Shown: one piece after another, positions 47,484-56,831 of the stretch
Numbering within the stretch: the first letter of the stretch is position 1
Layout: every line of letters starts with the position of its first letter
From: Actinomycetes bacterium
GTDB taxonomy: Bacteria > Actinomycetota > Acidimicrobiia > Acidimicrobiales > RAAP-2
Assembly (NCBI GenBank): GCA_021806045.1
Contig: JAJZDI010000001.1
Coordinates: 194,518-258,517 of the forward strand
Direction of reading: 5' to 3'
Length of the DNA stretch: 64,000 bases
The notes under the pieces: generated by a model
Seen by the model: only the letters and a program-made list of their open reading frames with translations
What the model was told of the DNA's origin: nothing
Database searches by the model: none
Translations under genes and position numbers: made by a program

Positions 47484-47542
47484 CCGGCCGGTACCGCCGG
47501 GCTGCCACGCTCCGACCGGTCGGCGGTGACGCCTCGGCCGGG

Positions 47543-47548
47543 TAGCGT
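47543..47548 (+). promoter_or_regulatory. -10 hexamer TAGCGT for leaderless tsaD
   Basis: TAGCGT ends 7 nt before the GTG at 47556. The 72-bp gap after rimI has no SD for that GTG, so an internal leaderless promoter is likely. Confidence 0.45.
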
Positions 47549-47555
47549 GCCCGGC

Positions 47556-48584
47556 GTGGACGTGCAGCGGGTGCTGGGGATCGAGACGTCGTGCGACGAG
47601 ACGGCGGCCGCCGTCGTCGACGGTGGCACCACCATCGTCTCGTCGGTCGTCTCCAGCCAGGTCGACCTCCACGCCCGCTACGGCGGGGTCGTTCCCGAGC
47701 TGGCCGGCCGGGCCCACGTCGAGCTCCTCACCCCCGTGCTTGCCGACGCCCTGGCCGCGGCCGGGTCGGACGCCTCGGGCCGGGGGATCGACGCGGTGGC
47801 CGTCACCTACGGTCCCGGTCTCATGGGCTCGCTGCTCGTCGGCGTGGCCGAGGCGAAGGCGCTGTCGATGGCGTGGGGGGTCCCCTTCGTCGGGGTGAAC
47901 CACCTCGAGGCCCACCTGTTCGCGTCCCTGCTGGAGCAGCCCGACCTGGGGTGGCCCCTGGTGGTGCTGCTCGTCTCCGGCGGCCACACCCTGCTGGTCG
48001 AGGTGACCGCCCCCGGCACCTACCGCCTTCTCGGCGGCACCATCGACGACGCCGCCGGCGAGGCGTTCGACAAGGTGGCCCGCTTCCTCGGCCTCGGCTA
48101 CCCCGGCGGGCCGGCCATCGACCGGGTGGCGGAAGACGGCGACCCGGCCGCGTTCGCCTTCCCGCGGTCGCTGCTGGGCAAGGGCTACGACTTCTCCTTC
48201 AGCGGGTTGAAGACGGCGGTGGTGAACGAGGTCCGCAAGCACCCCGAGGCCCGCACGGAGGATGTGGCCGCCTCCTTCCGCCGGGCGGTGGTCGACGTGC
48301 TGGTGTCCAAGGCCCGTGCCGCGGCGGCCGATGTCGGCGCCCGGGCCATCTGCCTGGCCGGCGGGGTGGCGGCCAACTCGCTGCTGCGCTCCGAGATCGT
48401 GGCCGCCTGCGAGGCCGACGGCATCGGGGCCTTCGTCCCCAGCCGGGCGCTGTGCACCGACAATGCGGCCATGGTGGCGGCGGCCGGCTGGTGGCGCCTG
48501 GCCAACAGCGGCGCCAGCCCCCTCACCCTGGGCGCCGATCCCAACCTGGAACTGGTTCCAACACACTCGCCAGACCTCAGCTAG
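47556..48584 (+). CDS. tsaD: tRNA t6A threonylcarbamoyltransferase TsaD
   Basis: Catalytic subunit that transfers the threonylcarbamoyl group to A37 of tRNA. It has 342 residues from GTG 47556 (VQRVLGIETSCDETAAAVV); a GTG 30 bp upstream would add residues not typical of the family and would place the -10 inside the gene. The metal ligands are the two His of NHLEAH. Other blocks are TYGPGLMGSLLVGVAEAKAL, VSGGHTLLVEV, FSGLKTAVVNEV and CLAGGVAANSLLR. Confidence 0.96.
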   Translation: MDVQRVLGIETSCDETAAAVVDGGTTIVSSVVSSQVDLHARYGGVVPELAGRAHVELLTPVLADALAAAGSDASGRGIDAVAVTYGPGLMGSLLVGVAEAKALSMAWGVPFVGVNHLEAHLFASLLEQPDLGWPLVVLLVSGGHTLLVEVTAPGTYRLLGGTIDDAAGEAFDKVARFLGLGYPGGPAIDRVAEDGDPAAFAFPRSLLGKGYDFSFSGLKTAVVNEVRKHPEARTEDVAASFRRAVVDVLVSKARAAAADVGARAICLAGGVAANSLLRSEIVAACEADGIGAFVPSRALCTDNAAMVAAAGWWRLANSGASPLTLGADPNLELVPTHSPDLS

Positions 48585-48587: not shown

Positions 48588-48666
48588 TCCCCGCACAGTT
48601 GGGGAGGGGCTCGGGGGCAGCAGCAGTGCCGCGCGTTCGTGCTCCGCGTAGAACGTGAGGTCGTCC

Positions 48667-51600
48667 ATGCGGGTTCACCGGGGCAGCGCCGTCGTCACAC
48701 GCCGGGACGGGGACGGCGGCGGCCGCATCGGGCGTGCCGTCCGGGGATGGCGGCGGACCGTCTCGGCGCTCGCCGCCACCCTGGTGGTCGTCTCGGGCGT
48801 CACCCAGTTGGTCGCCGTGGCGCCTGCCACCGCCGCCGCGCAATCGACCATGAACGTGATCACGATCGCGTCCAACCCGTCCGTGACCCTGCCGTGGGCC
48901 ATGGCCGTCGACCCGGCCACCGGCAACGTGATTGTCGCCAACAACCCCGGAACGGCGGGCAACATCGTCGTGATCGCCGGCAGCACGGGCACCTACTACG
49001 GCATTGCCATGACGGCTGGTGGCACGTACGCCGTCCCGGGTACGACCGGCGTGATCTCGGTCGCACTCGACGCCAGCGGCAACATCCTCTACGGCAGCGA
49101 ATCGCCGCAGTACTACACCTACGTGGTTCCCGTCACCACCCAGTCGAACATCTACGGGATCGCCACCGCCACGGCCGGCACCTCGTACCACATCATCGGA
49201 AGCGGCTACCTTACCTATACCGGTGACGGCAATCCGGCGCTCGGCGAGGGCGTTGCCGGGTCCTACCTGGCCGTGGACCACGCCACCGGAGACGTCGTCA
49301 TCGGCGACAAAGTCTCCCAGGGCACGAGGAGCGTCGTGCGGTTCGTGGCCGAGTCGACGTCGCCGTTCTTCGGCGTGGCAGCGCCCGTGGTCGGGGACAT
49401 CTACACCGTCTACACGTTCCCATCCGGCCAGGAGCTGAACGGTCTTGCCAGTGACCCGAACAACGGCAACTTGTTCTTCACCCACTGGTACGACGGCAGC
49501 GGTCCCACGGACTCGACCGTGCAACTCGACGCTGCCACGAGCGGCACCTACTACGGGGTCTCCGCCACGGCAGGCACTCCGGTGATCGTCGCCGGCAACG
49601 GCACGGAGAACCTCAATCGTGACGTGACCAGCGCCACCGAGAACGGCGTTCCGGCCACCAGCGCGTCGTTCCTGACGCCGACGAGCCCGGTGGTCGACGC
49701 CGCCGACAACCTGATCATCCCAGACACGCAGGACGACGCCATCCGGATCGTGGCCGCGTCCACGTCGCCCAACGGCTTCTACGGCGTGGCCACCGCCGGG
49801 ACCACCGCCGGTTACGTCTACACCGCCGCCGGCACCGGGGGGAATTTCGGTGGATATACCGACTACGTCCCGGCCACTTCCAGCAACTTCAACTATGTCA
49901 TGGGCGTCGGGCTGCGGGCCGGGGGTGACCTGGTCTTCACCGACGAGGGCAACAACGCCGTCCACCAGACGGGCACGCCGAGCACCCCGACCGGCCCACC
50001 CGTGGGCCTGGCCACGACCCCGGCCGGCGGTGGCACGGTCAGCGCCACCTGGTCCGCCCCGCCACAGCTGGCGTGGGGCTTCCAGCAGCTGACTGGCTAC
50101 ACCCTCGAGTGGTTCACCTGCACCGCGGTCGGGAACTGCTCGGGTACGCCAGCGGGATCGGTGATCACCACCAGAGCGTCCGCCGTCTCGGCCACGGTGG
50201 GCAACCTGGCCGGCGGGCAGCTGTACGCCTTCGAGGTGGCAGCGGTGAACGCAAGCGGGACCGGGCCGCTGTCGCCGCCTTCGTACCTCACACCGTCGCT
50301 CTCCGTGCCCGGTGCGGTCACCGGGCTCACAGTGACGGCCTTCAGCGGGCAGCTGGTGGCCACCTGGGCAGCACCGGCCTCCGACGGTGGCAGCCCCATC
50401 ACCGGGTACTCGGCCACCATCTCGCCGTGCTCGTCGGGTTGCACCCAGACGCTGGCTCCGGGCACGACGACAGCGACCTTCACCGGACTCACCAACGGGG
50501 TGAGCTACTCGGTCACCGCCACCGCGTCGAACGCGGTGGGCGCGGGCCCGCCGAACACGGCCAACGGCTACCCGACCGGGGTCCCCGGTCCGCCGTTCCT
50601 CAATTCGGCCACCGCGGGCGCCGGGCAGGTGACGGTGTCGTGGAGCCCGCCGGCCTCCGACGGCGGGCTACCGGTTATCGACTACCGCGTCTATGTCACC
50701 GGCATCGGGTGGGTGGACATGGGCTCGGCCGTTACGAGCTTGACGTTGAGCGGATTGGCGAACGGAACCAAGGTGTCCTTCGCCGTCCAGGCGGAGAACG
50801 CCAACGGGTTCGGCGCAGTGTCCAACACGCTGTACTTCACGCCGGTGGCCGCTCCGACGGCCGCGCCTACCGGCGTCGGATCCTCCGCCGGTGACCGCAC
50901 GGTGACGATCACGTGGACGGACGTGCCCGCCGCGTCGGACGGCGGTAGTCCGATCACCTCGTACGCCGTGACCCTCACCCAGGGGGCGACCACCGTGGCC
51001 ACCGCCTCGGTGGCACCGGGCACCCAGACGGTGACGTTCAACGGACTCACCAACGGCCTGGCCTACGTCGGGTCGGTGGCCGCGGTCAACGCCGTGGGCA
51101 CGGGCCCGTCGGCATCCGCCCCGCCGGCCACCCCGGTGTTCACCAAGCTCACCCCGACCGTCGCCGCCCCGTCGTCCACCCCGTCGAGCACCGTCTATGG
51201 CACGCAGACCGACCTGTCGACGACGGTGTCCGGTTCGGGGCCCGTCCCCACGGGCACGGTGACCTTCCTCGTCGGCGGCAACCTGTTCGACCCGGCGTGC
51301 ACGAACGTGCCGGTTTCCCCGGTGGGGACCGCAGGCTGCGTCACGGTGCTGCTGCCGGGAGGGACCGACAGCGTCACCGTCCAGTACTCCGGTGACGCCG
51401 CCTACAACGGGGCCACCTCGGTGCCGACGTCCGTCCCGGTCGGGGCGCTCACGCCGGGGATCAACGTGTTCTCCTCGGTCAGCCCGTCGGTGACCGGCCA
51501 GACCGTCACCTACACGGCATCGCTGGCGACCCCGCCCGGTGCCGCCCTCCCGACGGGGAGCATCGCCTTCTTCGACGGCGCCAACCCGATCACCTGCACC

Positions 51601-54600
51601 GGCGGTGTGGTCTTCTTCGGCACCGGCGCCAGCTGCGCCGTGACCTACACGACGACGGCCGGCTCACCGCATTCGGTCACCGCCGCCTTCACCACCGGGG
51701 ACCTGAACTACGCGTCGACCACGTCCTCCGCCTTCATCCAGACGGTGAACCCGGCAGGCACCACGACGGCGGTCACCTCGTCCCTCAACCCGTCGTCCTA
51801 CAGCGAGGTGATCCAGCTCACCGCCACCGTGACCGTGAACGCCCCCGGCGCGGGCACGCCAGCCGGCTCGGTCGCCTTCTACGACGGTGGCACTCCGCTG
51901 ACGTGCCAGCCCGGGCCAGGCACGTCGCCCTTCGACGGGACCTCCGCCAGCTGCCAGGTGAGTCTGTCGGCCGGGACCCACGGCGTCACCGCCGTCTTCA
52001 CCCCCACCGGGGGTGACTTCACCGGCTCCACGTCGGCGACCACCATGCAGGTCGTCAACCCGCAGTCGACCACGACGTCGGTGACCAGCTCGGGCACGCC
52101 CGTCTCCTTCGGCACCCCGGTGACGTTCACCGCCACCGTGGGAGTGAACGGCGCCACGTCCGGCACCGTCACCTTCTTCGACGGGGTCACCACCTTGTGC
52201 GCCAACGTGGCCCTCGGCGGTCTCAGTCCGGGCGGTGCCACCTACACGTGCACGGTTCCGGACCTGGTCGTCGGTACCCACGCGGTCACCGCCGCCTACA
52301 GCGGCGACGCCAACAACTCGGCGTCGAACTCGGCGACCTCGCCGTTCGACGAGGTCGTCACCCAGGCCACCCCGGTGGTGGCCGCTCCGACCGTCGGCCC
52401 GAACCCGTCGGCCTTCGGCCAGCCGGTGACCTTCGCCACGACCGTCTCGGGCCCGGGGACCACCCCGACGGGCACGGTGACCTTCGACTCGGGCGGCACC
52501 CCGGTGGACGCCGCCTGCACGAACGTGCCCGTGGGTGCCTCGGGTTCCGCCACCTGCACCTCGGCCGCCCTGGCCGTCGGCACCGACCAGGTCACCGCCG
52601 TCTACTCCGGTGACGGGAACTACACCGGCCTCACCTCCTCGGCCACCCCCGAGACGGTGAAGCAGGCGCAGACGGTGACCTCGGTCGCCTCCTCGGCGAA
52701 CCCGTCGGTGACCGGCCAGACCGTCACCTACACGGCCATGGTCGGGGTCACCGCCACCGGGGCGGGCACGCCCACCGGTTCGGTGACGTTCTCCGACAAC
52801 GGCGGCCCGATCACCTGCGGGGCCGGCAGCCAAGCCTTCAACGGCACCTCGGCCACCTGCACGGTGGCCTACAACGCCACGTCGGTCTCGCCGGAGTCGG
52901 TCACCGCCACCTACGGCGGCGACACGGACTTCGCCACCTCGACGTCCCCGGCCCTCGCCCAGAAGATTGACCCGGCGTCGACCACGACGACGGTGTCAAC
53001 TTCGACCCAGCCGTCCCTCTTCGGCCAGACGGTGACCCTCACGGCCACCGTGGCCGTCACCGCTCCGGGCAGCGGTGCGGTGACGGCGCCCACCGGGACC
53101 GTCACCTTCTCCGACGGGTCGAACCCGATCACCTGCGGCGCGGGGAGCGTCACGTTCTCCGGCACCACGGCCACCTGTGTCACCTCGGCCCTGGGGGCCG
53201 GGACCCACGCCGTCACCGCCACCTACACAGGTGACGCCAACTTCTCCGGGTCCACGGCGGCGCCGTTCATCCAGATCGTGGGCCCGGCCCCGACCACCAC
53301 CACGGTCGTGCCGTCGGTCAACCCCTCGGTCTACGGCCAGACGGTGACCTTCACGGCCACGGTGGCTCCGGTCGCCCCGGGGGCGGGGGCGCCCACCGGG
53401 GTCGTCCAGTTCTCGGACGGCACCTCTGGGCTGTGCACCAACGTGGTCCTCACCCCGGGGACGGGGAGCTCCACCGCCACCTGCAGCGAGTCCATGTTCG
53501 TCCCCGGCACCTACCCGGTCGTCGCCTCCTACGACGGCAGTGCCGACTTCGTGCAGTCGGACAACTCGGCGGCGCCGCTCAGCCAGGTCGTTGACCAGGC
53601 CACCCCGACGGTGGTCGTGACCGCCGATGCTGCCACCCCCAGCCCCTCCACCTACGGGTCACCGGTCACCTTCAACGTGACCGTCACCCCGCCCTACGCG
53701 GGGATGGCCACCGGCACGGTGACCGTGGCCGGCGACGGCTCGGTGGGCACGCTGTGCACGGTGACCCTGGCTGCGGATGCCGGAACGTGCACCACGACGA
53801 CGGCGTCGTCCGCCGTCTTCGGTGCCGGTGCCCATACGGTCACCGCCACCTACAACGGCGACACCAACTTCACCACCGCTTCGGGCACGGTGCCCTACAC
53901 GGTCGACCAGGCCACCCCGACGGTGACCATCACCTCGGCCACGCCGGCCGACGCCACGCCGGGCCAGGACGTCACCTTCGCCGTGACCGTGGCTCCGCCG
54001 GGGGCGGGAACGCCGACGGGCTCGGTCACCCTCACCGGCAACAACGGCATCGGCACGCTGTGCACGGTGACGCTGGCGGCCGGGACGGGCACCTGCACCA
54101 CGCCGAAGGGGTTCTGGTCCTCACGGGCCGTCACCGTCACCGGCGCCTACTCGGGTGACGCAAACTTCACCGCCGCGTCGGGCACGGCGTCGGTCACCCC
54201 CGCCGTCGGCTACTGGATGGTCGCCTCCGACGGCGGCATCTTCACCTTCGGCAACGCCCGGTTCTTCGGCTCCACCGGTGGGCTGACCCTGAACAAGCCC
54301 ATCGTGGGCATGGCCCCCACCCCCGACGGCCAGGGCTACTGGCTGGTGGCCTCTGACGGCGGCGTCTTCTCCTTCGGGGATGCCACCTTCTACGGCTCGA
54401 CGGGCAAGCTCACCCTGAACAAGCCCATCGTGGGCATGGCCGCCACCCCCGACGGCAAGGGCTACTGGCTGGTGGCCTCCGACGGCGGCATCTTCGCCTT
54501 CGGGGACGCCACCTTCTACGGCTCGACGGGCAAGCTCACTCTGAACAAGCCCATCGTGGGCATGGTCCCGACCCCCAACGGCAAGGGCTACTGGCTGGTG

Positions 54601-54702
54601 GCCTCCGACGGCGGCATCTTCGCCTTCGGGAACGCCGTCTTCAAGGGCTCGACCGGGGCGCTGACCCTCAACAAGCCGGTCGACGGCATCGGCTTCCCGT
54701 GA
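48667..54702 (+). CDS. Giant secreted mosaic protein: NHL propeller, 4 FnIII, 10 Ig-like, 4 C-terminal repeats
   Basis: Exported protein of 2,011 residues; I recognise the domains but not a named protein. ATG 48667 has a GAGG SD 6 nt upstream (a GTG at 48655 is the alternative). Residues 1-58 are a long signal peptide ending ATAAA. Residues about 60-437 are NHL-like propeller blades (for example [20 protein letters not shown]). Residues 440-823 hold four fibronectin type III domains ([21 protein letters not shown]). Residues 828-1843 hold ten Ig-like domains of about 100 residues, most with a Cys pair and the ending Y-x-G-D-x-N/D-F/Y. Residues 1848-2011 are four 42-residue repeats. No sortase motif or C-terminal membrane helix is seen, so attachment must be by another route, or the protein is released. 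A role in adhesion or surface structure is inference. Confidence 0.85.
51150..54195 (+). repeat. Ten tandem Ig-like domain repeats (about 300 bp each)
   Basis: Degenerate repeats with the pattern T-x-T-S/T-V-x-x-S-x-N-P-S, then G-Q-x-V-T-F-T-A-T-V, P-T-G-x-V-x-F, C-x-x-V, then V-T-A-x-Y-S-G-D. Copies 6 and 7 are most alike. They lie inside the giant gene and make it prone to recombination or assembly collapse. Confidence 0.8.
54208..54702 (+). repeat. Four tandem 126-bp repeats (42 aa, [10 protein letters not shown] type)
   Basis: Units begin at 54208, 54334, 54460 and 54586, an exact 126-bp period; the last is 117 bp and ends at the stop. Each encodes [20 protein letters not shown], then [15 protein letters not shown] and a PTPDGKG linker. 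Middle units are almost identical at DNA level, pointing to recent duplication or gene conversion. Confidence 0.95.
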
Positions 54703-54707
54703 TCTGA

Positions 54708-56831
<2,124 letters not shown>

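Follow-up and report, generated by a model that had tools for sequence, protein, structure and literature searches.

In the endolysins of pneumococcal phages an enzyme at the N-terminus is followed by a C-terminal region that attaches to the wall of the host, and the choline-binding modules, which as a rule are C-terminal, are common to pneumococcal surface proteins and to phage amidases and GH25 lysozymes, as set out in excerpts of PMC4929436. In the same manner as in the choline-binding proteins of Streptococcus pneumoniae and its phage endolysins (LytA, Pal, Cpl-1), the repeat-built module discussed here is carried by host proteins as well as by phage lysins. It was met at the end of a large gene in a stretch of 64,000 nucleotides (the window) of an Actinomycetes bacterium of the order Acidimicrobiales (contig JAJZDI010000001.1, positions 194,518 to 258,517). 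We surmise, with a probability of roughly two in three, that the gene product is a fibre held at the cell wall, and that the propeller family to which its C-terminal repeats belong is a non-covalent wall anchor common to host proteins and phage endolysins. The gene and its repeats are located as follows.

48667 to 54702, forward strand: complete gene for a secreted mosaic protein (2,011 residues; frame without internal stop)
54208 to 54699, forward strand: C-terminal propeller repeats, four of 42 residues, putative wall-binding anchor (126-nucleotide spacing, repeat hidden Markov model, modelled paralogue)

The repeats start at 54208, 54334, 54460 and 54586, a spacing of exactly 126 nucleotides, and the array ends with a putative closing strand, PVDGIGFP. 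The first-pass annotation of this DNA rightly reported four novel-looking C-terminal repeats and underestimated their novelty; no curated family was found that accounts for them. When the 164 C-terminal residues were used as a query against the bacterium's own genome (G000; 3,104,608 bases in 43 contigs), 114 matches were obtained, and the stretches around them, 45 in number, hold the repeat core in 59 reading frames, the window gene included. Six pairs of these frames adjoin or overlap, leaving about 53 places. By the repeat profile, six repeats are present in 30 frames, five in eight, four in five and other numbers in 16; among the 27 frames with fewer than six, nine are cut short where the contig stops and 11 adjoin or overlap another repeat frame, like split genes. 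One frame 1.1 kb past the end of the window (C9:259630-262983) has 11 repeat matches in two arrays (6 + 5) and is the sole frame of the genome with that number. Six of the 43 contigs (C6, C12, C32, C34, C35 and C36) start or end within a repeat array, which indicates that the draft assembly breaks at the repeats.

The 30 frames with exactly six repeats, one of them lengthened by ten residues, make up the alignment A1, in which many glycines and aromatic residues are nearly invariant. AlphaFold2 folds the six-repeat domain of a paralogue from A1 into a six-bladed propeller with a predicted local distance difference test score (pLDDT) of 94.7 and a predicted template modelling score (pTM) of 0.90. 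Each repeat supplies three strands, save that the first blade has two and a lone last strand is found at residues 252-256; because the strand order would let this strand complete the first blade, the modelled ring is apparently closed by its last C-terminal strand. VIA-align placed six-bladed YWTD propellers first (Z up to 17.8, root-mean-square deviation 3.6 Å over 230 residues) with NHL propellers close behind, and Foldseek gave the top rank to WD40 propellers, with TM-scores of about 0.45-0.65. The fold is like that of the YWTD (low-density lipoprotein receptor, LRP), NHL and YVTN propellers; the difference lies in the three-stranded blades of 42 residues and in a sequence identity of 6-16% in the VIA-align rows listed.

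Sequence comparisons do not clearly place the repeat in a described family. The best PDB sequence match of the window's C-terminal domain is the YVTN surface-layer protein 1l0q (E = 0.0058), and a profile search of the PDB returned the RCC1-like chain of HERC2 (E = 4.8e-4). The likeness to RCC1 repeats is a weak profile similarity: RCC1_2 matches eight of the 30 six-repeat members weakly, and the window copy falls below every Pfam cut-off (RCC1 12.1 against 21.7 bits). No Pfam or NCBIfam model spans the six-repeat domain. PF04075, an F420H2 quinone reductase family, scored 30.4 bits against a cut-off of 22 over a 33-residue stretch of the first six-repeat domain and matches seven of the 30 members; for DUF5818 the number is 24 of the 30, below cut-off where scores are given. 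Both were set aside as chance matches, since repeats add up weak matches; each extends over about 15-35 residues of one repeat. The other families listed are scattered or fall short of their cut-offs. Matches in PHROGs are scattered, nearly all of them to proteins of unknown function. We believe that the repeat probably represents an undescribed beta-propeller family, with three-stranded blades of 42 residues, usually six per predicted ring. The open-access literature searched gave no account of such a propeller anchor, nothing for the peptide words of the repeat and no paper pairing Acidimicrobiia with endolysin, and the excerpts returned for Acidimicrobiia and propellers dealt with phosphorus, phytases and plants. 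In excerpts of PMC6115969 propellers occur in receptor-binding proteins and not in endolysins.

The choline-binding repeat of Pfam, CW_binding_1, was matched neither by the window protein (E ≤ 1) nor by the 30 six-repeat domains (E ≤ 0.01) or 42 viral proteins (E ≤ 0.001). In view of these scans the identification as a choline-binding protein was rejected. Unlike the choline-binding modules, which excerpts of PMC4929436 describe as extended repeat rods that bind choline, the 42-residue blades would here form a propeller. The module likewise differs from Cpl-7 repeats at the level of families, in that the Cpl-7 family is absent among the Pfam matches listed for the 30 domains and 42 viral proteins.

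A scan of viral contigs revealed 45 loci with the domain, 42 of which have an open reading frame (ORF) with at least two repeat matches. Amidase_2 is present in 21, and Glyco_hydro_25 (GH25) in three, of the 42 viral proteins submitted to Pfam (E ≤ 0.001; all loci except L256-L258). When N-terminal parts were clustered by single linkage at E < 1e-4, in a slightly different set of 42 from which L219, L235 and L248 had been left out, 30 fell into one group, and this group contains all six Pfam-positive amidases that were checked singly. The lysins outside it we take, by eye, to be M15-like, GH25-like or amidase-like, and two pairs of viral proteins look to us, on the same basis, like M15-type peptidases. 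The viral rows are not independent, inasmuch as L221, L223 and L224 start alike, as do L245 and L249. This architecture, a hydrolase with a C-terminal module, is that of an endolysin with its wall-binding domain. Among annotated phages the domain was found in one of 50,697 records at E ≤ 0.001, Caudovirales GX15bay (31% identity), where the gene that contains it is annotated as glycoside hydrolase family 25 and has a minor tail protein in its vicinity. Plasmids gave no match to the domain.

Ten neighbouring genes were inspected on six viral contigs. L214 and L242 lie among tail, virion and tape-measure families, L221 beside a helicase and a polymerase family, and L233 beside a methyltransferase; the neighbours of L216 and L217 gave no family match. 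The latter two contigs each encode a large protein (L216:1666-4797 and L217:1858-4923) with about 8-11 repeats in mid-protein, and these are perhaps tail proteins serving host binding, not lysis. The protein at L235:2905-4080 has a signal-peptide-like start and an array of 5-6 blades near its N-terminus, resembling a host surface protein.

Domain matches (A1 profile) are present in 35 of 61 genomes, the bacterium's own and 60 relatives, with a maximum of 69 match pieces per genome. An even draw across the phylum found the domain in 21 of 396 genomes, and a collection of named genomes yielded at least 567 confirmed loci. The following statistics refer to the best 80 of these, whose repeat counts are biased toward six because the query had six repeats and none but the best loci were kept. 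Of the 80, 75 have names from within the Actinobacteria: 39 acidimicrobial (Acidimicrobiaceae, Acidimicrobiales or Acidimicrobiia 36, Acidithrix ferrooxidans two, Acidiferrimicrobium one) and 36 broader. The five other names are Thermoplasmata (two), Chloroflexi, Acidobacteriota and "bacterium"; the first four of these loci (L145, L159, L205 and L152) show 65-70% identity to the query, and are possibly due to misbinning or transfer. Like the choline-binding modules, the propeller is mostly C-terminal. In 45 of the 59 own frames the array ends at most 14 residues from the frame end (in three of them the contig stops there), in 65 of the 80 named complete ORFs it lies no more than 20 residues from the C-terminus (63 of the 65 with six repeats), and in 35 of the 42 viral proteins no more than six residues separate it from the ORF end; it is C-terminal in 10 of the 23 complete ORFs of the relatives.

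The partners of the domain are diverse. Fifty-three of the 59 repeat proteins (set A2; six short fragments omitted) were scanned with Pfam, and none of the 25 partner families listed out of 57 occurs in more than four: TIG, He_PIG and fn3 in four each, RCC1, PD40, NHL and collagen in two each, and GH43, Amidase_3 and BD-FAE in one each. An esterase domain is present in L037, a GDSL lipase in L042 and SpoIID in L034; other single proteins have RCC1, BNR/sortilin-type, PD40 or DUF7948 domains, and in many a Pfam partner match is absent. A home-made signal-peptide rule was positive in 19 of 32 repeat ORFs versus 18 of 100 other ORFs, a control which may contain false genes (Fisher p = 2e-5), and a laxer rule in 22 of 32 versus 23 of 100. 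The diverse partners and the enrichment of signal peptides characterize the propeller as a terminal module shared by proteins that are otherwise unrelated and in many cases exported. An LPxTG-like motif is found in the last 60 residues of none of 48 repeat proteins checked (of 59), the window protein among them, which agrees with the earlier statement that the window protein lacks a sortase motif; sortase anchoring of this protein was rejected on that ground. SLH membership was likewise rejected, there being no SLH domain in the genome at E ≤ 0.001; the S-layer-like role also proposed for the protein thereby received no support, although SLH is not universal in S-layer proteins.

We propose that the window protein is a secreted fibre whose C-terminus fastens it to the cell wall. 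In this view its terminal propeller would be a non-covalent wall-binding module, or foot, the 14 FnIII and Ig-like domains a stalk, and the N-terminal NHL-like propeller a head that faces outward and makes contact with ligands or neighbours. Since the sharing of the module by host proteins and phage lysins is like that of the choline-binding modules, we suggest that the propeller binds a wall component of this lineage, probably a wall polymer. Fusion to this module would equip dozens of different exported proteins of the bacterium; phages would likewise fuse it to their endolysins, which would thus target the same kind of wall; the hosts of these phages presumably have the wall of this lineage. 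The first-pass annotation had envisaged two different binding heads, and we have revised this, as the presence of the repeat in 59 frames of the genome and in phage peptidoglycan hydrolases fits a common wall foot better. If the anchor is indeed shared, the surface proteins of such bacteria would become predictable genome by genome, the domain by which these phage endolysins are targeted could be named, and the propeller would be one more wall-binding fold. Excerpts of PMC5962788 state that Acidimicrobiia abound in many habitats and have very few cultured species.

Several observations weigh against this interpretation. The window array has four blades instead of six, and shares the arrangement of four blades and putative closing strand with C17:55948-60228. 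The array ends more than 14 residues from the frame end in 14 of the 59 own frames, more than 20 from the end in 15 of the 80 named ORFs and also in 13 of the 23 complete ORFs of relatives, where the last array has six repeats in five of the ten C-terminal cases (the model used there had been trained on the own genome). Twenty-six of the 61 genomes are without a match, including G007, G008, G010, G011 and G014 of the same family; 13 of the 32 repeat ORFs lack a signal peptide by the stricter rule; and the genome encodes two sortase-like proteins, so that the propeller cannot be the only possible anchor. Among the phage proteins, L222 belongs to the amidase cluster and yet has no Amidase_2 match at E ≤ 1, and L214 has none at E ≤ 0.001. 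With regard to the four blades, the longest exact internal repeat is 53 nucleotides in the window gene and 112 nucleotides in the other four-blade gene, and the count could be due to assembly collapse. An eight-blade dimer or the loss of two blades is also possible, because WD40-derived units of four blades formed dimers according to excerpts of PMC6805158.

The same data might be read in other ways. The propellers of other families bind ligands on a face, and the C-terminal propeller could be an outward adhesive or lectin head for extracellular polysaccharide or biofilm neighbours, its carriers being components of a matrix and not anchored in the wall; the FnIII/Ig stalk does set it far from the N-terminal head, and among its fusion partners are enzymes for which matrix polymers would be possible substrates. 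We regard this as unlikely, as it leaves unexplained the C-terminal module of phage amidases and lysozymes, which must find host peptidoglycan. The lysins are also the difficulty for a protein-docking module, by which exported proteins would dock on one wall-bound scaffold in the way that dockerins dock on cohesins: a docking code would suit the occurrence of one C-terminal module in dozens of proteins that are unrelated to each other, but the phage enzymes would need the host scaffold to be present, and we judge this account distinctly improbable.

Very little credence is given to the view that the repeats amplify themselves as neutral sequence, have passed from gene to gene by recombination and lack a common function. 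It is true that inner blades are more alike within a gene than between genes (identity 0.71 versus 0.60 in 26 genes, whatever the position) and that intact frames with four or five repeats occur. Six repeats are, however, far more frequent than any other number (30 of 59 frames, against eight for the next), many glycines and aromatic residues are nearly invariant, and the repeat has persisted in phages as well as in several families of the order. The identities suggest that blades increase in number and become uniform within single genes, and the growth of new propellers by blade amplification and homogenisation within genes is described in excerpts of PMC6805158.

Most phage copies have fewer blades. 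A whole-repeat model applied to the 39 complete ORFs with at least two matches counted three repeats in 22, two in 12, six in three, and ten and 11 in one each; a core model applied to 42 ORFs counted three in 19, two in 14, one in four, six in two, and five, eight and nine in one each. These numbers are divisors of six, except in L235 (five or six) and the two tail-like proteins (8-11). Modules of one, two and three blades may assemble into rings, by analogy with oligomeric propellers of two to five blades, which excerpts of PMC6805158 describe for WD40-derived constructs. A wider proposal, that the family is the main surface-protein anchor of a bacterial order, with one propeller foot common to dozens of exported proteins per genome, and that six-blade rings arise on the wall from phage units of one blade (as hexamer), two (as trimer), three (as dimer) or six (as monomer), is tentative, and in our estimate somewhat more apt to be wrong than right; a single designed WD40 blade was an unfolded monomer (excerpts of PMC6805158), which speaks against the one-blade case. 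If it holds, these lysins would be oligomeric because of their targeting domain. The phage copies with one, two, three or six blades are natural cases for the growth of propellers from single blades.

The remaining features of the window gene are given below.

48667 to 48837, forward strand: signal peptide (sequence reading and home-made signal-peptide rule)
48838 to 49986, forward strand: N-terminal NHL-like beta-propeller, putative distal head (distant homologues, AlphaFold2 model, fold matches)
49990 to 51150, forward strand: four fibronectin type III (FnIII) domains, outer limits approximate (Pfam PF00041, four stretches, E = 8.2e-39)
51150 to 54207, forward strand: ten bacterial immunoglobulin (Ig)-like domains, Big_3_5, outer limits approximate (Pfam PF16640, ten stretches, E = 3.4e-106)
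54745 to 54786, forward strand: strong GC hairpin, possible terminator without T-run (folding versus shuffles, z = -4.15)

The signal peptide has a long arginine-rich n-region followed by a hydrophobic core, with cleavage likely near ATAAA. As had been proposed in the first pass, there are four FnIII domains (fn3) and ten Ig-like domains, and together with the signal peptide they support, at the level of sequence, a secreted surface fibre of modular build in which the Ig-like and FnIII domains form the stalk. The N-terminal domain is less certain than the others. No Pfam model exceeds its cut-off in the N-terminal 383 residues (NHL 10.7 against 20 bits), and a PDB sequence search with them returned nothing at E ≤ 10. 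The NHL-type propeller claimed for this part is plausible through its distant homologues in related genomes, which have NHL-like repeats as judged by eye, and through a moderate AlphaFold2 model (pLDDT 66.8, pTM 0.71), the best fold matches of which are the teneurin, Pizza6, NHL and PknD propellers. A search of the own genome with this domain matched the domain itself and nothing else; there was no match in a same-genus genome (88% complete), and the relatives found, in five of 60 genomes, are weak.

The intact frame begins with ATG at 48667 and ends with a stop codon at 54700-54702; an in-frame GTG is found at 48655, and GTGAGG at 48655-48660 is a plausible ribosome-binding sequence for the ATG. 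The gene lies between tsaD (47526-48584, upstream) and groES (54886-55179, downstream), as described previously. A -10 element of its own, also claimed, was not recovered, the promoter scan giving no promoter-like site 5' of the gene. As for the strong terminator, a very strong GC hairpin does follow the stop codon, and the region 54700-54830 folds with -90.6 kcal/mol versus -74.3 ± 3.9 for 200 shuffles; a T-run is absent after the hairpin, which is not among the calls of the terminator scan of the window. Rfam and tRNA scans of the window were both empty.

The gene is not a conserved member of this locus. The tsaD-groES interval was searched in 41 genomes, the own included, and both genes are on one contig in 29 relatives, the interval of the other 11 not being judgeable. 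Between match ends the gap is below 300 nucleotides in 13 of the 29 and 0.8-9.4 kb in 16 (L260-L275); the repeat model found zero repeats in the DNA of these 16, and the idea of a conserved tsaD-groES gene was rejected, the repeat gene being there in 0 of 29. The interval is a variable site between two conserved genes of a widely kept pair. At 54833-54859, 5' of groES, there is a perfect inverted repeat, TTGGCACTC-N9-GAGTGCCAA, which we take to be a CIRCE-like (HrcA) operator.

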